DNA of 37,604 nucleotides, taken from NCBI GenBank assembly GCA_011371455.1, contig DRQN01000140.1:1-37604 (forward strand), written 5' to 3'. The notes beneath the pieces were generated by a model, which worked only from the letters and a program-made list of their open reading frames with translations, was not told the origin of the DNA and made no database searches. A program made the translations under genes and the position numbers. The DNA comes from Gammaproteobacteria bacterium (GTDB lineage: Bacteria > Pseudomonadota > Gammaproteobacteria > SZUA-152). Below, piece after piece: positions 18,740 through 27,106 of the stretch. Position 1 is the stretch's first letter; each line of letters begins with the position of its first letter.

Positions 18740-18911
18740 GCCACAGAGGCACAGAGTACACGGAGGGAATTCATGTTGGCTCGTCATCCCGGATACAACG
18801 GGAATCCGGAATCCAGGCTTGCACGTGATGCCGCATGGATTCCCGCCTGCGCGGGAATGACGAAGAAAGAAACATTTCGATCTTCTCTGTGTCCTCCGTG
18901 CCTCTGTGGCG
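18740..18911. repeat. Composite nested inverted repeat between hisA and hisF
   Basis: The outer arm GCCACAGAGGCACAGAGTAC (from 18740, to about 18767) is complementary to the stretch ending CCTCCGTGCCTCTGTGGC (to 18911). Inside are a CATCCCGGATACAACGGG-type repeat and the common ATTCCCGCCTGCGCGGGAAT palindrome (18839-18858). The inner start (ATTCATGTTGGCTC) resembles that of the element at 19717-19843, so the two are related copies of one composite. Confidence 0.8.
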
Positions 18912-18921
18912 AACAAAAAAC

Positions 18922-19668
18922 TCAATCCCCGGCAGCCGCCAGCTCGTCCGCCAGCTTCTGGCCCTCGACGAAGTCCAGGCTGCCCTCGTAGATGGCCCGC
19001 CCGGTGATGGCACCGATGATGCCCTCGTCGGCCACCTCGGCCAGGGCGCGGATGTCGTCCAGGTTGGTGATGCCGCCGGAGGCGATCACCGGGATGTGGA
19101 TGGCGGCGGCCAGCTTGGCCGTGGCCTCGACGTTGACGCCGCTCATCATGCCGTCGCGGGAGATGTCGGTGTAGATGATGGCCTCCACGCCGTCTTCCTC
19201 GAAGTGCCGGGCCATGTCGATGACGTCGTGATGCGAGAGCTTGGACCAGCCGTCGATGGCCACCTTGCCGTCCCTGGCGTCGAGGCCGACGATGACGTGG
19301 CCGGGGAAGCTCAGGCACAGGTCGGAGACGAAGTGCGGCGCCTTCACCGCGCGGGTGCCGATGATCACGTAGGCGACGCCGGCGTCCAGGTAGGTGGCGG
19401 CGGTGTCCTCGTCGCGGATGCCGCCACCGATCTGCACCGGCAGGTCGGGGCAGGCCTCGACGATCTCGTGCACCACGTCGGCGTTCACCGGCTTGCCCTC
19501 GAAGGCGCCGTTGAGGTCCACCAGGTGCAGGCGCCGCGCGCCGGCCTCCACCCAGCGGCGGGCCATGGCCACGGGGTCATCGGAAAAGATCGTGTCGTCT
19601 TCCATGCGGCCCTGCTTGAGGCGGACGCACTTGCCGTCCTTGAGGTCGATGGCTGGAATCAGGAGCAT
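18922..19668 (-). CDS. hisA: ProFAR isomerase HisA
   Basis: This encodes a 248-residue TIM barrel isomerising ProFAR to PRFAR. The catalytic aspartates are in [10 protein letters not shown] (D8) and GLDARDGK (about D130). GGGIRDE and ASGGITN bind the substrate phosphates. It has the internal half-barrel symmetry it shares with HisF. The gene is separated from hisH upstream by 189 bases with an inverted repeat. Confidence 0.97.
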
Positions 19669-19716
19669 GCGCTATTCCTCGTTATGCGGTTTCTATCGCT
19701 GCAAAAATCATTATTC

Positions 19717-19843
19717 GCCACAGAGGCACGGAGTACACAGAGGAAATTCATGTTGACTCACCATTCCGGATGTAGCATAGCGGAATTCCGGAATGACAAA
19801 AGAAACACGTCGAATATCTCTGTGTCCTCTGTGCCTCTGTGGC
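19717..19843. repeat. Composite inverted repeat between hisH and hisA
   Basis: GCCACAGAGGCACGGAGTAC at 19717-19736 (arm to about 19743) is complementary to the stretch at 19816-19843 ending TGTGCCTCTGTGGC. The interior starts ATTCATGTTGACTCACCATT, close to the interior of the element at 18740-18911, and contains a CATTCCGGA/GGAATTCCGG pair. Confidence 0.8.
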
Positions 19844-19857
19844 AATCATTCTTCCCG

Positions 19858-20508
19858 TCAAACCCGCCCATCCCAGGCGACGAAGTTGGCGTACAGCTGC
19901 AGCCCGTCGTGCTGGCTCTTCTCCGGGTGGAACTGCACCGCGAACACGGCGCCCCTGGCCAGCGCCGAGGCGAAGGGGAAGCCGTACACCGTGGAGGCGG
20001 CGATGGGTTCCGGCCCGGCGGGCTGGGCGTAGTAGCTGTGCACGAAATAGAAGCGCGCGTCCTGGGGGATCTTCGCCCACAGGGGGTGGGGCATGGTCTG
20101 CGTGACCTGGTTCCAGCCCATGTGCGGCACCTTGAGGCGCTCGCCGCTCACCGGGTCGGTGAGATCCTCGGGAAACGGCTCCACGGTGCCCTCGAACACC
20201 CCCAGGCAGTCCACGCCCTCGTTCTCGGCGCTGCGCTGCAGCAGGGCCTGCATACCCACGCACACGCCCAGCAGGGGGCGGCCCTCGGCCACCACGTCCA
20301 GCACCACGCGGTCCAGGCCGCGCCCTTTCAGCTCGGCCATGCAGTCGCGCATGGCGCCGACGCCGGGCAGCACCACGCGGTCGGCCTCGCCGATCTCGGC
20401 GGCGTCGGAGGTGACCCGCACCCGGTGGCCGCCCGGCACGTGCTCCAGGGCCTTGGCCACCGAGTGCAGGTTGCCCATGCCGTAGTCGATTACCGCGACG
20501 GTGTTCAT
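19858..20508 (-). CDS. hisH: Imidazole glycerol phosphate synthase glutaminase subunit HisH
   Basis: This encodes a 216-residue class I glutamine amidotransferase supplying ammonia to HisF. The nucleophile is C83 in [10 protein letters not shown], and the His/Glu pair is in VQFHPEKSQ near residue 195. The oxyanion strand LPGVGAM is at 48-53. It starts four bases after the hisB end. It is separated from its partner hisF by hisA, as usual in the hisBHAF order. Confidence 0.97.
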
Positions 20509-20511
20509 GGC

Positions 20512-21105
20512 CTACAGCGCGCCCTTGGTCGACGGCAACTGGCCGCCCAGGCGCGGGTCCTGCGTCATGGCCATGCGCAGGGCGCGGCCGAAGGCCTTGA
20601 ACACGGTCTCGGCGATGTGGTGGGCGTTGCGGCCCTGCAGGCAGTCGAGGTGCAGGGTCACCTGGGCGTGGTTGACGAAGCCCTGGAAGAACTCGTGCAC
20701 CAGCTCCAGGTCGAACTCGCCCACGCGCTCGCGCGGGAACTCAACGCGATTCTCCAGCCCTGGCCGCCCGGAGAAGTCGATCACCACCCGCGACAGGGCC
20801 TCGTCCAGCGGCACGTAGGCGTGGCCGTAACGGCTGATGCCCTTCTTGTCGCCGAGGGCCCGGGCGATGGCCTGGCCGAGGGTGATGCCGACGTCCTCCA
20901 CCGTGTGGTGGGCGTCGATCTCCAGGTCGCCCCTGGCCCGGATGTCCAGGTCGATGAGGCCGTGGTGCGCCACCTGGTCCAGCATGTGGTCGAGGAAGGG
21001 CACGCCGGTGTCCAGCTTCGAGGCACCGCTGCCGTCGAGGTCGATACTGACGACGATCTGCGTCTCCAGCGTGTCGCGCTTTACGGTGGCCTTGCGTTCA
21101 GCCAT
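20512..21105 (-). CDS. hisB: Imidazoleglycerol-phosphate dehydratase HisB
   Basis: This encodes a 197-residue manganese enzyme removing water from IGP. The two metal-binding motifs are [10 protein letters not shown] (HH at 66-67) and [17 protein letters not shown] near the C-terminus. It is the monofunctional form: the N-terminal histidinol-phosphatase domain of the E. coli enzyme is absent, so that activity must come from a gene outside the window. The start at 21105 has AGGAGA upstream. Confidence 0.97.
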
Positions 21106-21143
21106 GGGGGAAGTCTCCTGCGATTGAAGGGTAGAGCATACCG

Positions 21144-22217
21144 TCAAGCGATAGCCGATTGAAGCGCTTGGAGAAAGGCGCCGTTCTCCTCGGGCCTGCC
21201 GACGGTAACGCGCAGGCAGCCGGCCAACGGCCCGCCGGCGGGATCGAGGTTCTTGATCAGCACGCCGTCGGCCTTCAGGGCGGCGAACACGGCACCGGCG
21301 TCGCCGTGCACGCGGAACAGGATGAAATTGGCGCGCGAAGGGTAGGGCGTGACGCCGGGCAGGGCGTCCAGGGCCTGCCACAGGGTCTCGCGGTCGGCCG
21401 TGATCCGGCGTGTCTGCGCCTCCAGCACCTCGCGGTGTTCGAGGGCGAAGTCGGCGCTCACTTGCGTCAGCACGTTGATGTTGTAGGGCAGGCGCACCTT
21501 GTCGAACTCGCCCAGCCAGGCTTCGGGGCCGGCCAGCAGGCCCAGGCGCAGGCCGGCCAGGCCCATCTTCGACACGGTGCGCATCACCAGCAGGTTGTCG
21601 TACTCGCCCAGGCGCGGCATGAAGGAGGCCTCGGCGAAGGCGTGGTAGGCCTCGTCCACCACCACCAGCCCCGGCGCGGCCTCGATGATGGCGCGCACGT
21701 CATCGGCGTCGAACAGGTTGCCGGTGGGGTTGTTGGGGTAGGCGAGGAACACCACCGCCGGGCGGTGCTCATTGATGGCTGCCAGCATGGCCTCTCGGTC
21801 GAGACCGAAATCATCCGCCAGCGGCACGCCCACGTAGTCCATGCCGCAGAAGGTGGCGATCATGCGGTACATGACGAAGCTGGGCTCGGGGGCGAGGATG
21901 GTCCGCCCCGGCGCGGCCACCGCCTGGCTGACGATCTGGATCAGCTCGTCGGAGCCGTTGCCCAGCATCACCGCCTGTCCCCCGGGCACGCCCATGGCCT
22001 CGCGCAGGCGTGCGCTCAGGGCGCGCGCGGCGGGGTCGGGATAGCGGTTCAGGGCCGCGCCGCGCAGGCGTTCGAGCCATTCCTCGACCATCGCCTCGGG
22101 CCAGGTGTAGGGATTTTCCATGGCGTCCAGCTTGATGAGATCGCCCGGGTCCGGCACGTGATAGGCGGCCAGGGCGCGGATCTCGGGGCGGATCCATTGG
22201 GTGATCTTGTCGGGCAT
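21144..22217 (-). CDS. hisC: Histidinol-phosphate aminotransferase HisC
   Basis: This encodes a 357-residue PLP enzyme of fold type I converting imidazole acetol phosphate to histidinol phosphate. The PLP-binding lysine is K217 in [23 protein letters not shown] (159-167) and [10 protein letters not shown] are the other landmarks. Two ATGs (22217 and 22223) fit the family N-terminus, and neither has a clear binding site. The arm of an inverted repeat ends just upstream (about 22228), so the leader is made of repeat sequence. The longer frame to 22271 translates the repeat and is rejected. Confidence 0.95.
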
Positions 22218-22227
22218 GATCATTTTC

Positions 22228-22430
22228 AACGCAAAGACGCAAAGGCGCCAAGGTCGCAAAGGAAAGGACACGATTCGCTGCGCTTTCGGTCATTCCGGCG
22301 CATGCCGGAATCCAGGCATCTCGGACCACTGGAACCCGGCATGCGCCGGGATGACGAGCTAATCAGATTTTTGTGCATCTTCCACTTCGAATTTCTTTGC
22401 GGCCTTCGCGACCTTGGCGCCTTTGCGTTG
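22228..22430. repeat. Large nested inverted repeat between hisD and hisC
   Basis: The left arm 22228-22262 (CAACGCAAAGACGCAAAGGC, then GCCAAGGTCGCAAAGG) is complementary to 22395-22430 (containing CGACCTTGGCGCCTTTGCGTTG with small differences). Nested inside is a pair built from CATTCCGGCGCATGCCGGAA (about 22290-22309) and a CCCGGCATGCGCCGGGATGA stretch. It fills nearly the whole gap between the two genes. Confidence 0.8.
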
Positions 22431-22439
22431 AAGGCTTTT

Positions 22440-23735
22440 TCACTTGATACGGTATTCCGCCGAGCGGGCATGGGCGTCGAGGCCCTCGCCGCGGGCCAGG
22501 ATGGAGGCGGTCCGGCCCAGATCTGAGGCACCCTGTTCCGAGCAGAAGATGAGGCTGGAGCGCTTCTGGAAGTCGTACACCCCCAGCGGCGAGGAGAAGC
22601 GCGCGGTGCGCGAGGTGGGCAGCACGTGGTTGGGGCCGGCGCAGTAGTCGCCCAGGGCCTCGGCGGTGTAGCGGCCCATGAAGATGGCGCCGGCGTGGCG
22701 GATGCGCGGCACCAGGGCCTCGGGGTCCGCCACCGACAGCTCCAGGTGCTCGGGGGCGATGAAGTTGGCCACCTCGACGGCCTCGTCCATGTCCTTCACC
22801 TGGATCAGGGCACCGCGGTCGCCCAGCGACTTGCGGATGATGGCCTCGCGGTCCATGGTCGGCAGCAGCCTCTCGATGCTGGCGGCGACACGCTCGATGA
22901 AATCGGCGTCGGGGCTGACCAGAATGGCCTGGGCATCCTCGTCGTGCTCGGCCTGGGAGAACAGGTCCATGGCGATCCAGTCGGGGTCGGTGTCGCCGTC
23001 GCAGACCACCAGGATCTCCGAGGGTCCGGCGATCATGTCGATGCCCACGGTCCCAAAGACGTAGCGCTTGGCGGTGGCGACGAAGATGTTGCCGGGGCCG
23101 ACGATCTTGTCCACCGGCGGTACCGTCTCGGTGCCATAGGCCAGGGCCGCGACTGCTTGAGCTCCTCCAACGGCGAACACGCGGTCCACGTCGCACACGG
23201 CGGCGGCGGCCAGCACCAGTTCGTTGACCTCGCCGTCCGGGGTGGGCACCACCATGACCAGTTCCTCCACCCCGGCCACCTTGGCGGGGATGGCGTTCAT
23301 CAGCACCGAGGAGGGATAGGCCGCCTTGCCGCCGGGCACATACAGGCCGACGCGATCCAGCGGTGTGACCTGCTGGCCCAGCATGGTGCCGTCCGCCTCG
23401 CGGTAGCTCCAGCTCTCCTGCACCTGGCGCTGGTGGTAGCGGCGCACCCGTTCGGCGGCCAGCTCCAGGGCCTGGCGCTGATCGGCGGGCAGGCCATCGA
23501 GGGCCTGCCGCAGGCGATCCACGGGGATCTCCAGCTCGCCCATGCCGGCCACCGACATGCGGTCGAAGCGGTTGGTGTATTCCACCAGGGCGGCGTCGCC
23601 GCGCTCGCGGATGGCCTGGATGATCTCCTTGACGATGTCGTTGACGGCATCGTCGGAGACACCCTCCCAGGCGAGCATTTTTTCCAGCTTGGGCCAGAAA
23701 TCGTCGGCGGTGGTGTCGAGGCGTGTAATGCTCAT
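22440..23735 (-). CDS. hisD: Histidinol dehydrogenase HisD
   Basis: This encodes a 431-residue zinc-dependent enzyme oxidising histidinol to histidine in two NAD-linked steps. Typical segments are [20 protein letters not shown], the [16 protein letters not shown] region, [15 protein letters not shown], and GPSEILV. Length and ends match the family. The start at 23735 gives the usual N-terminus; longer in-frame starts would run into the lipoprotein gene. It has no clear binding site, and a copy of the dispersed palindrome lies 41 bases upstream. Confidence 0.97.
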
Positions 23736-23775
23736 GGTCGGCTGTACTTCGATTGATTTGAAAAGGTCATCGTTA

Positions 23776-23795
23776 CCTGAATCCGCAATTTCAGG
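23776..23795. repeat. Dispersed palindrome, variant copy
   Basis: CCTGAATCCGCAATTTCAGG is an imperfect version of the palindrome at 12476-12495, with the outer CCTGAA/TTCAGG arms kept and the centre changed. It sits in the 76-base gap between the lipoprotein gene and hisD. Confidence 0.55.
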
Positions 23796-23811: not shown

Positions 23812-26175
23812 CTATTCCATCGCTCCCAGGTCGTTGACGGAGGCACGCGGCGCGCTTTGCTGATGCCGCACGTACTGCCGGGTGACGCCGGGAAGACCCG
23901 CCGGGATCGCCTGCGCCGTGCCTTGCAGCAACGGGGTGTCCAGCGATTCCAGCGTCTCCCTGTCGATGGGCGCCGGCGCGGTGGAAACATCCAGCAGGTT
24001 CGCCGCCCCGTTCACGCTCGGGCCATCGGACGGGACGCCATAGTAACACTCGGAAGCCGCACCATCGCCCTGCCAGGTATCGGTCATCCAGTTCACGCCG
24101 AAGTTGATCGTTCCCTGGTTCGTGTCGTCGAGGCAGAAGTAGGACGGCTCGCCGCTCTCGCCCGTGAAGTAGATGATGTTATTGAAGACCTCGAGCGTTT
24201 CCCGCGAACGTACGGTGTCGTTACGATTGCCCAGGTAGAAGAGACGGAATCGCCAGACGTCGCTCAGGTCCTGCTCGATGGAAAGCGTGTTGTGGTAGAA
24301 ATAGAGGGTGCCGGCGCGGGACAGGGCCGGATCGTTGTCGCTGCCGTAATGGACGATATTCCCGGCCACCGTCTGGCTGCCCACGTGGCGGAAGAAATTT
24401 CCGTACACATGGGTTTCGCGATAGGCCGCATCGGCCGCCTGCACCTTGGCGAGGCGGTCGGGGTCGATGCCGGGGCAATTGTTCACGTCGGTGCAGCCCA
24501 GTTCGTTCAGGTACTCGGAGACGAGGTACCAGGGCGCCGCATCCTCCACCTCCACCAGATCCAGCATGCGGGAACTGCCGCTGTCGAACCAGTTGTAGCG
24601 GATCACGGAGCCCGCCACGCGCTCTTTCAGGGTGACGCCGCTCGAGGCGGGGGCATTGGCGCCGAAGCGGTTGTATTGATACACCACGCCGATGGCCTGG
24701 ATATACACGCCATGTTCCAGGTAACTGCCCGCCTGGCCGTGGCCATGCAGATAGTTGCTCTCGATGAGCAGGTTGCGGGTCAGATGGGCCTCGTTATAGC
24801 CCTGAGACATGGTGAAGATGCCGTTGCCGCAATTCTCCAGTTCGTTGCCGCGGATCACCACATTGTCGGCGGCCTGGATGCGGATGCAGGCGGCGCCGTT
24901 TTCGTAGTTGTCCGTGCTGCCGTCCATGCGGGTGTAGCTGAAGGTGTTCTTGGCGTTACGGATATGCAGACCCTCGATCACCACGTTGTGGACCTTGAGG
25001 CCGTAGTCCCGGTTGTACAGCATCACCATCGCCAGTCCTTGCATCGGCGCATAGCCGCCATAGGCGTCGCTGTCATCCGGGTCGTTCACCGCCCCGTCGC
25101 CGTCCAGGATGGGGCGTTCGCCGTTAGGGCCTGGCACACCACAGAGACGGATGGGCTGGTCCTCGCTGCCGTTGGTGCGGATGACGATCTTCTCCCGGTA
25201 GGGTTCTGTCCGGTAATGGATGCGCACCGTGTCGCCCGGGCCGAGACTGCCCCAGGGCACGTCGGCAATGCTGGTGTAGGTCTGACCGGGACCAACCGGA
25301 TAGTCGTTGCCGCTGCCGGTGTGGACGCAGGAGCCGGTGACCACGAAATCATCGTTCATGATGGTGCCGGTGGCCTCGGCGGTCGCCAGTTCGGCATTGA
25401 CGGGCTGGCTCAACCGCAGCTGGAAGGTCTCGTCGCCTTCCACCTCGGTATCGCCGAGGATGGTGACCGGCACCGTGGCGGTCGTGGTGTTGGCCGGAAT
25501 AATCAGGGTGCCGCTGGCGGACTGGTAGTCGCTGCCGGCCTGCGCGGAGCCATCGACGGTGGCGTAATCCACGCGCACCTCGCCGCTGGCCGGCGCATCC
25601 AGGGAGACGGCAAAGGCCAGTTCGTGGCTGCCGCTGTCACCCTCGCTGGTGGCGGCGGGCGTCACGCTGATACGGGCCAGGCCGGCGCTATCGTCGTTGA
25701 GGATGGTGCCGGTGGCCTCGGCGGTCGCCAGCTCGGCATTGACGGGCTGGCTCAACCGCAGCTGGAAGGTCTCGTCGCCCTCCACCTCGGTATCGCCGAG
25801 GATGGTGACCGACACCATGGCGGTCGTGGTATTGGCCGGAATAATCAGGGTACCGCTGGCGGACTGGTAGTCGCTGCCGGCCTGCGCGGAGCCATCGACG
25901 GTGGCGTAATCCACGCGCACCTCGCCGCTGGCCGGCGCATCCAGGGAGACGGCAAAGAGCAGTACGCGGCTGCCGCTGTCGCCCTCGCTGGTGGCGACAG
26001 ACGTCACGCTGATGCGGACCGGGTCGGCGGCTCCGTCGTCATCATCGGTCTTGCTGCCGCAGGCGGTCAGGACGAAGCCCAGCAGGACAACGAAAATGGC
26101 TCGCTGCCAGGCGATCCGTGTGTGTACCAGGCAAGGCCGGAAGCCGGCGGTGATATCGAGGCGATTGATGTTCAT
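23812..26175 (-). CDS. Calx-beta / parallel beta-helix lipoprotein inside the his operon
   Basis: This encodes a 787-residue secreted protein. A signal with lipobox LTAC puts the lipidated cysteine at residue 39, followed by SKTDDDD; the early aspartates leave retention in the inner membrane or export both possible. Two Calx-beta-like repeats (54-167 and 168-281) with [16 protein letters not shown] and [11 protein letters not shown] motifs are nearly identical. From about 300 on, repeated short strands with [31 protein letters not shown] and [14 protein letters not shown] indicate a right-handed parallel beta-helix, as in polysaccharide lyases and some adhesins. No lyase catalytic set could be identified. 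I chose ATG 26175 because the frame then begins directly before the signal; the binding site is weak. The gene lies between hisG and hisD and is unrelated to histidine synthesis by sequence. Confidence 0.88.
25333..26016 (-). repeat. 342-bp tandem duplication coding for two Calx-beta repeats
   Basis: Bases 25333-25674 and 25675-26016 are two in-frame copies, 342 bases (114 codons) apart, with only scattered differences along much of the length. For example, the segments around 25361-25500 and 25703-25842 differ at only a few positions. The similarity at synonymous sites points to a recent duplication or ongoing gene conversion within the lipoprotein gene. Confidence 0.9.
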
Positions 26176-26220
26176 GGCATTGGCTCTGCGGTAGTGGTGG
26201 AACCTGTGTGATTGACACAA

Positions 26221-26300
26221 ATATCGCAAAGACACGGAGGCCGCAAAGGAAAAGTGTCTGTATTGTGAAAAACTTTGCGTTCTTTGCGCCTTTGCGCTGA
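26221..26300. repeat. Inverted repeat between hisG and the lipoprotein gene
   Basis: TATCGCAAAGACACGGAGGC (from 26221, arm continuing CGCAAAGG to 26248) faces a partly complementary stretch at 26271-26300 (CTTTGCGTTCTTTGCGCC then TTTGCGCTGA). It is the shortest and least perfect member of the GCAAAGGCGCAAAGG family in the window. Confidence 0.7.
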
Positions 26301-26326
26301 AATTCCGTACCCTGAAAATACCGCCA

Positions 26327-26980
26327 TCAGCCCCGCTGCGCCACCGCTTCGGCGATGTCGTCGATGACGGTCTTGACGCGTTCGTGCTTCATCTTCATCG
26401 AGGCCTTGTTGACGATCAGGCGCGAGCTGATGTCGGCGATGTGCTCCAGGGGTTCAAGGCCGTTGGCGCGCAGGGTGTTGCCGGTGTCCACCACGTCGAC
26501 GATGCGATCGGCCAGCCCCACCAGCGGCGCCAGTTCCATGGAGCCGTAGAGCTTGATGATCTCCACCTGCTCGCCACGCGCGGCGTAGAAGCGCCGCGTG
26601 CAGTCGACGAACTTGGTGGCCACGCGCAGGCGGCGGCCGTCGTTGCCGCTGTCGCCCACCCGCCCGGCGGTCATCAGCTTGCAGGTGGCGATCTTCAGGT
26701 CGACGGGTTCGTACAGACCCTCACCGCCGTGCTCCATGAGCACGTCCTTGCCCGCCACGCCGAGGTCGGCGGCGCCGTACTGGACGAAGGTGGGCACGTC
26801 GGTGGCGCGCAGGATCAGCAGCTTGACGTCCTCGCGGTTGGTGTCGAGGACCAGCTTGCGGCTGGACTCGGGGTCGTCCACCGGCTCGATGCCGGCATGC
26901 GCCAGCAGCGGCAGCGTCTCCTTGAAGATGCGCCCCTTGGAGAGCGCGATCACCAGCGCGTCGTTGTCCGAACCACTCAT
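26327..26980 (-). CDS. hisG: ATP phosphoribosyltransferase HisG, short form
   Basis: This encodes a 217-residue enzyme joining ATP and PRPP, the committed and feedback-controlled step of histidine synthesis. [15 protein letters not shown] at the N-terminus, [10 protein letters not shown] and the PRPP loop [14 protein letters not shown] are present. It lacks the C-terminal ACT-like regulatory domain of the long form, so it should need the HisZ partner, which is not in this window. ATG 26980 is preferred over a GTG at 26992. The start lies 150 bases after murA, across a pair of inverted dispersed repeats. Confidence 0.96.
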
Positions 26981-27028
26981 CCCATCAATCACTCAACACG
27001 AAACAATAAACACTCAGCACCCAGCCCC

Positions 27029-27106
27029 GTAGGTTGGGGTGAGGAACGAACCCCAACAGGGGAGCTTCAGCACGTCGTTGGGGTTCGCAAGCTCACCCCA
27101 ACCTAC
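27029..27106. repeat. Inverted pair of GTAGGTTGGGG repeats between murA and hisG
   Basis: One copy reads rightwards at 27029-27058 (GTAGGTTGGGGTGAGG... CGAACCCCAACA) and a second leftwards at 27077-27106 (GTTGGGGTTCGCAAGCTCAC then CCCAACCTAC). Together they can form a hairpin of about 78 bases in addition to the small hairpin within each unit. No U-tract follows, so it is not a standard terminator. Confidence 0.75.

Follow-up and report, generated by a model that had tools for sequence, protein, structure and literature searches.

Why does a gene for a surface lipoprotein lie inside the histidine operon of a gammaproteobacterium, and what might its product do? The window, by which we mean the whole stretch of DNA analysed here (37,604 nucleotides), is the whole contig C140 of a genome of 2.1 Mb in 240 contigs, 74% complete. 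A sequence-only reading had placed a lipoprotein gene between hisG and hisD on the same strand, and ORF calling with translation confirmed both flanks and a real gene with the same ends, composed as follows:

26330–26992, minus strand: hisG (PF01634, 1e-51)
23812–26175, minus strand: lipoprotein gene, 787 amino acids, with lipobox, two Calx-beta repeats and beta-helix head (ORF, translation, Pfam)
26059–26118, minus strand: signal peptide and lipobox (inspection of the translation)
25348–26016 (upper bound approximate), minus strand: two Calx-beta repeats forming the stalk, 342-nt tandem unit (PF03160 in two stretches; 95% identical 300-nt direct repeat)
23815–25320, minus strand: 502-residue right-handed beta-helix head, protein residues 286–787 (AlphaFold2 pLDDT 94.0, pTM 0.94; PDB folds)
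22443–23735, minus strand: hisD (PF00815, Histidinol_dh, 3.4e-172)

The domains named in that reading stand. Inspection shows the lipobox LTAC of a bacterial lipoprotein, and Calx-beta scores 127.8 bits in two stretches against a PF03160 cut-off of 27. The window protein stays just under the Beta_helix cut-off (PF13229, 24.8 against 25.9 bits), which the relative L085 passes with 27.8 bits; here the beta-helix is backed by the confident model. Scores for NosD were below their cut-offs (PF05048, 21.6 against 23.6; TIGR04247, 15.6 against 300). That these domains have no link to histidine synthesis was also upheld. The Calx-beta units at 25348–25989 are 94–95% identical to each other in their 342-nt tandem, and the repeated Calx-beta stretch of the congener G001 is 99% identical over 205 nt, which suggests that the repeats may have been homogenised within each lineage.

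On the same strand as the lipoprotein gene lie murA, hisG, hisD, an aminotransferase gene in the hisC position and a His_biosynth gene of the hisA/hisF type. A scan for sigma-70-like promoters gave 0 sites, hence none between hisG and hisD, and a terminator scan gave 3 sites against 2.7 expected, 0 of them between the two genes. Since no promoter- or terminator-like site was found there, co-transcription of the lipoprotein gene with the his genes is plausible. Codon use, which had been put forward as a check on origin, did not set the gene apart: the figure for the whole gene (0.101) falls within the span of nine host genes (0.071–0.154) and so carries no mark of recent arrival, and only the short Calx-beta part, taken alone (0.205, 238 codons), lies outside that range. 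We therefore rejected foreign codon use of the whole gene. Elsewhere in the window, a 775-residue ORF at 18835–21159 (plus strand) runs opposite other ORFs, has no Pfam match and is probably a chance ORF in GC-rich DNA.

We compared the hisG–hisD junction across a family set of 24 genomes, with hisG found in 20 and hisD in 20, measuring the gap between the match ends of the two genes. In 17 of the 18 genomes with both on one contig the gap is 35–327 nt, against 2,594 nt in the window, and among these 18 the lipoprotein gene lies between hisG and hisD in the window only. The family-wide, tightly spaced presence that would mark an operon gene was thus not found, in keeping with the earlier view that the gene is out of place here; its absence from 17 of 18 genomes indicates that it was added in the window lineage (or lost many times). 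The congeners are seven genomes, window included. Four of them (G003, G004, G005 and G006) have an empty junction with a gap of 93–240 nt, and G004 carries a homologue at another site, adjoining genes for LptE and for DNA polymerase III delta (holA-type). The homologue lies beside hisD in G001 and beside hisG in G002; both contigs end inside the lipoprotein gene, breaking in the Calx-beta repeats. Among 90 loci of relatives (L066–L155, including the 80 kept in a named scan), some of them cut by contig ends, hisD occurs only in L076 and hisG or murA in none. We conclude that the lipoprotein gene is not a normal his-operon member. In one open-access library we found no paper on a comparable his-operon insertion, or on Calx-beta in connection with hydrothermal vents.

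The 5′ end of the gene resembles that of its neighbour. Congener hisD begins MNITRLDTxxxDFW, and the lipoproteins of the window and of G002 begin in a hisD-like way, that of G002 as MNITCLDATTNGFW. The two starts at the window junction are:

26135–26249, minus strand: leader and first ~14 codons of the lipoprotein gene, with homology to G003 across the spacer of its empty site and the start of its hisD (115 nt, leader included; local alignment score 93, whereas 1,000 mononucleotide shuffles reach 29 at most; the upstream part overlaps a dispersed repeat, which contributes part of the score)
23692–23737, minus strand: native hisD start, direct-repeat partner of 26135–26177 (score 37 against a shuffle maximum of 27; 33 against 32 on coding nucleotides alone)

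With leaders included, the window gene aligned to hisD above its own mononucleotide shuffles for six of eight sources, hisD of G001 and L076 not rising above theirs (25 against 26 and 29). Six of seven control starts with leaders scored 12–21, and hisC scored 34 because of its CTTTGCG repeat. A cleaner test used the first 48 coding nucleotides only, with 500 dinucleotide shuffles. The window gene then scored 25–48 against hisD starts, above all 500 shuffles for 8/8 although three by one point, and the G002 gene scored 34–46, clearly above all 500 for 8/8; six control starts gave 10–21. The G004 homologue at its other site has no hisD-like start and begins MVDRWLWYRVILVIF after AGGAGG. The window ORF has an alternative upstream GTG at 26235, and we favour the ATG at 26175 because it aligns with the hisD start codon. 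Directly after the hisD-like part, the window and G002 genes share the residues [FP]CLV, which favours one origin for both his-located genes. The hisD-like start was seen in these two genomes only, the contigs of G001 and L076 beginning downstream of it. The insertion probably left its scar here: the lipoprotein gene would open with a fused duplicate of the hisD start, and hisD has kept its own. A general habit of capturing starts from neighbours was rejected: in a survey of 31 loci (L076–L106; 26 tested, 24 scored, L089 and L102 being too short), with the first Met of each ORF taken as the start and 60 shuffles each, the window gave 37 against 29 and otherwise only L081 exceeded its own shuffles (26 against 23), its short match lying in the leader and far downstream, not at the start.

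Repeats on both sides of the gene, at 26221–26300 and 23776–23795, had been suggested as marks of how it was inserted. Neither fits that role.

26221–26300, no strand assigned: dispersed intergenic repeat, not insertion-specific (19 matches in its own genome to 26200–26330; similar elements in empty sites)

The 19 matches count the stretch itself and are mostly to parts of it, and CTTTGCG-type sequence is seen by eye in the empty hisG–hisD spacers of G003, G004 and G006; because the repeat is dispersed in the genome and has similar sequence in empty spacers, it does not mark the insertion. Positions 23776–23795 are part of a small hairpin, and the 80-nt spacer stretch that holds them folds no better than shuffles (z −0.06). 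Further palindromic intergenic repeats occur at 22225–22432, 22289–22355 and 27030–27105, of the types CTTTGCG, ATTCCGGC and GTAGGTTGGGGTGAG (the last by eye). Because the hisC ORF, as called from 22271, extends into such a repeat, its true start is probably downstream. Between the lipoprotein gene and hisD of L076 and G001 we observed a further element with three strong hairpins:

L076 1785–1925 and G001 contig C978 4581–4721: ~140-nt hairpin element (RNA fold z −5.7)

This element has at least 40 matches in G001 and none in the window genome, and presumably resembles IS200/IS605-derived miniature elements.

Divergence across the junction is uneven. G001 and L076 differ at 17 of 2,456 sites over the part of the lipoprotein gene present, the spacer and hisD nucleotides 1–443, and at 75 of 850 sites in the remainder of hisD. 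Fisher values for this comparison are approximate, the breakpoint having been picked after looking, and we therefore used a permutation test, in which 0 of 500 permutations gave a change point as strong as that at hisD nucleotide 443. Further downstream the identity is 89–96%, falling to 82% and below where the contig ends. G002 and G001 are 98.9% identical over 366 nt of the lipoprotein gene and 95.7% in their FadE genes. The low-divergence block suggests that the gene may have passed between genomes by homologous recombination, with the exchange in hisD; a similar block between G001 and L076 could also arise from an assembly that is a chimera of strains. The L076 contig (DRKU01000044.1), which carries the homologue beside hisD, is binned in MAG HyVt-448 (G394), where we found another hisD at 77%, a FadE match at 64% and one copy of the ~140-nt hairpin repeat. 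Given this second, more distant hisD, the distant FadE and the single repeat copy, L076 is probably a misbinned contig of the window genus.

For the history of the genus we used a FadE tree instead of murA/hisG/hisD supermatrix trees, which were dropped because the reading frame of murA is broken in G004 and some of the genes are missing from G001, G002, L076 and the outgroups; an RNA polymerase marker, found in four of seven genomes, was left out of the trees. In the FadE tree the window joins G006, and G001 and G002 join G005, both G006 and G005 being empty at the junction. The tree of heads places the window together with L077, which is labelled Thermaceae (99/97), and apart from the his-located heads of G001 and L076, a placement that would count against one vertical origin. 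One clade of the three his-located heads is weak though not rejected (p 0.073), and a single clade with the G004 copy added gives p 5e-5.

Of 369 genomes of the class searched with the head, five gave a match, the genome of the window being one of them. In the named scan, of which the best 80 of 184 loci were kept, L076–L106 are 49–79% identical to the window head and bear bin labels that include Gammaproteobacteria, Thermaceae, Parvularculaceae, Hyphomicrobiales, Desulfobulbaceae, Deferrisomatales, Campylobacterota lineages and Planctomycetota lineages; single labels may be wrong, and all assemblies are MAGs. In the family to which the L091 genome belongs, 151 genomes were sampled and 5 carry the head, at 60–61% identity. 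Sample codes other than 4281-140 we take to denote vent samples. Gene GC is 46.7–50.4% against 40.5–43.6% in the flanks at four Campylobacterota-labelled loci, and within 5 points of the flanks at the other 22 loci measured. The code 4281-140 belongs to a hydrothermal-deposit MAG set, according to PMC9793634; the sample codes were not found in PMC12043954. By eye, the stalks of relatives vary (Calx-beta, an FN3-like stretch, acidic repeats, Gly- or Ser-rich, or none), and lipoboxes are present in many, L083–L085 carrying an ordinary signal peptide instead.

The search for homologues and their neighbourhoods, also proposed from the sequence, placed relatives at several other, clade-specific sites. 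All-against-all comparison revealed a neighbourhood common to the Sedimenticola-type loci L083, L084 and L085 and to L106, a nusB region (nusB by eye) common to L090, L096, L097, L098, L104 and partly L102/L103, a ~280-residue neighbour common to L089, L091, L093 and L095, and one neighbour common to L079 and L086. These shared groups led us to reject a reading of no conserved neighbours. Other residences are beside comM and ABC-F genes, or beside dcd, GGDEF and Ala_racemase-like genes. Because places differ between clades and are shared within them, the gene appears to move between places, but not often. Plasmid and phage collections gave no match and viral contigs only three distant loci (31–33%); no close relative in these collections points to an origin from viruses, phages or plasmids. 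In another family, two genomes have several head matches, four in G233 (L066, L070, L073 and L075) and three in G333 (L067, L071 and L074), two of those in G333 side by side; a group II intron-type reverse transcriptase is seen by eye near L066.

A first AlphaFold2 model of the head from 10 sequences reached pLDDT 78.6, and with 36 sequences the prediction became the confident right-handed beta-helix of pLDDT 94.0, as the sequence-only reading had expected. The fold is borne out by 50 listed VIA entries (Z 20.6–28.0, mostly within model residues 3–449). The top entry is the alginate lyase PsAly (Z 28.0, rmsd 2.1, 272 aligned), followed by a Geobacillus virus protein (Z 25.9, rmsd 2.5, 278 aligned) and the lyase RbmB (Z 25.5, rmsd 3.2, 306 aligned); hydrolases, epimerases, tailspikes and the adhesin PfbA stand lower. 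The first Foldseek match is not a lyase but the GH136 lacto-N-biosidase BsaX (E 1.9e-6), with PL6 lyases from E 1.5e-5 and chondroitinase B at 4.7e-4. A single-sequence search of the PDB gave no match at E ≤ 1, hence no sequence similarity to PL31 or PL6, and a profile search gave 19 matches at E ≤ 10, all of them to phosphoketolase or spike proteins, with the best at E 0.16; we found no credible sequence relative in the PDB, and so none of known activity. Residues invariant in 36 of 36 sequences include H203, Y206, K232, R234, R241, Y242, R251 and D254 (head numbering). According to PMC6796002, polysaccharide lyases are proposed to work through side chains of His, Tyr, Lys or Arg. From the modelled fold we infer that the head may be a polysaccharide lyase or close kin, held on a stalk at the outer surface.

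Taken together, we consider it fairly probable that the gene encodes an evolutionarily mobile, stalked, polysaccharide-lyase-like surface lipoprotein that was inserted between hisG and hisD in one genus with a captured start. This reading draws from the data on the anatomy, the hisD-like start in two genomes, the patchy presence, the low-divergence block with its hisD breakpoint and the predicted fold. The sequence-only reading had missed the captured start, the spread of the head over several phyla and the recombination-like breakpoint in hisD. The main rival to the lyase is an adhesin: a non-enzymatic adhesin or matrix anchor, whose beta-helix binds polysaccharide or a surface without cutting, like pneumococcal PfbA, is possible if on the unlikely side. 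PfbA itself appears in the list of matching folds (Z 21.8, rmsd 3.7, 339 aligned), adhesins and tailspikes have the same fold and Calx-beta stalks are common in adhesins, whereas the top fold matches are mostly lyases, hydrolases and epimerases, and the invariant ionisable residues cluster in sequence at head positions 203–254.

The history of the insertion admits a rival of similarly limited probability, in which the gene entered the genus ancestor long ago and then dropped out cleanly several times as the two hisD starts recombined with each other, horizontal spread playing only a small part. The junction residues [FP]CLV common to the window genome (G000) and G002, the empty nearest relatives G006 and G005 and the flanking direct repeat agree with such a history; against it, the gene block is less diverged than its flanks between G001 and L076, the gene itself is little diverged between G002 and G001, and the closest head to that of the window is L077. 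It is very improbable that a lipoprotein contig was wrongly joined to hisG or hisD in assembly or binning. Although all genomes are MAGs, L076 is probably misbinned in a MAG with a second hisD and two contigs break in Calx-beta repeats, the same neighbour recurs in three congeneric assemblies and L076, and a hisD-like start in two genomes would be unexpected from random joining. We give still less credence to a functional his-operon member, such as a periplasmic sensor tied to amino-acid supply: the shared strand and the lack of promoter- or terminator-like sites between hisG and hisD would suit one, but the gene is missing from that junction in all other testable family genomes and the relatives elsewhere have hisD only in L076.

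For the expression, topology, mode of movement, activity and substrate of the inserted, lyase-like lipoprotein we propose the following. A single surface-lipoprotein gene with relatives elsewhere in other bacteria would have entered the hisG–hisD junction in one gammaproteobacterial genus, leaving it with two hisD-type starts. Of these, one would still head an intact hisD, and the other would now supply the lipoprotein gene with its opening ~14 codons and, in the window, with its leader. The lipoprotein gene would thus stand collinear with the his genes and begin at a hisD-type start. Through this duplication the gene could be lost cleanly, and hisD could act as a homology arm for transfer between species. 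The lipid would hold the protein at the outer membrane, the stalk of interchangeable repeats would extend the head, and the beta-helix with its invariant His, Tyr, Lys, Arg and Asp may cleave, or else bind, an extracellular polysaccharide. The fullest version, a stalked surface polysaccharide lyase family exchanged among bacteria of several phyla, some of them from hydrothermal vents, with the his operon of one genus as a landing site that supplied a captured start, movement by a hisD arm and clean exit via the duplicated start, is tentative and, as a whole, rather unlikely. The locus would show at the single-codon level that a duplicated start can let an unrelated gene into a biosynthetic operon and leave that operon unbroken, and it points to a stalked beta-helix family across several phyla, whose substrate would tell which extracellular polysaccharide matters to them.

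Among known systems, PsAly of Paenibacillus sp. FPU-7 (6kfn), which we take to belong to family PL31, has a right-handed beta-helix like the window head. Its catalysis uses Tyr184 and Lys221, according to PMC6796002, and the window family likewise has an invariant Tyr and Lys in the helix, a likeness drawn from sequence. Unlike PsAly, the window protein is a stalked lipoprotein, and its head, at 16% identity, has no sequence match in the PDB. The Vibrio polysaccharide lyase RbmB (9ozl/9ozd) also shares the beta-helix fold and, according to PMC11637428, cuts a biofilm polysaccharide; the window head differs from it at 14% identity, and no biofilm locus was seen in the window or in those neighbourhoods that we inspected. 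GH136 lacto-N-biosidases, PL6 lyases and chondroitinase B are alike in fold by Foldseek, at identities of only 10–16%. The homologue L116 of Paenibacillus koleovorans, by comparison, is 38% identical over head residues 3–413. It lies in a 1,662-residue ORF with SLH domains and is therefore probably also at the cell surface, although anchored by SLH domains and not, like the window protein, as a lipoprotein. In the parts of the literature accessible to us we found nothing that equates the thiopeptidoglycan lyase of P. koleovorans with the L116 protein. This species presumably degrades bacterial sheaths, and L116 is a candidate lead for its sheath-degrading enzyme.
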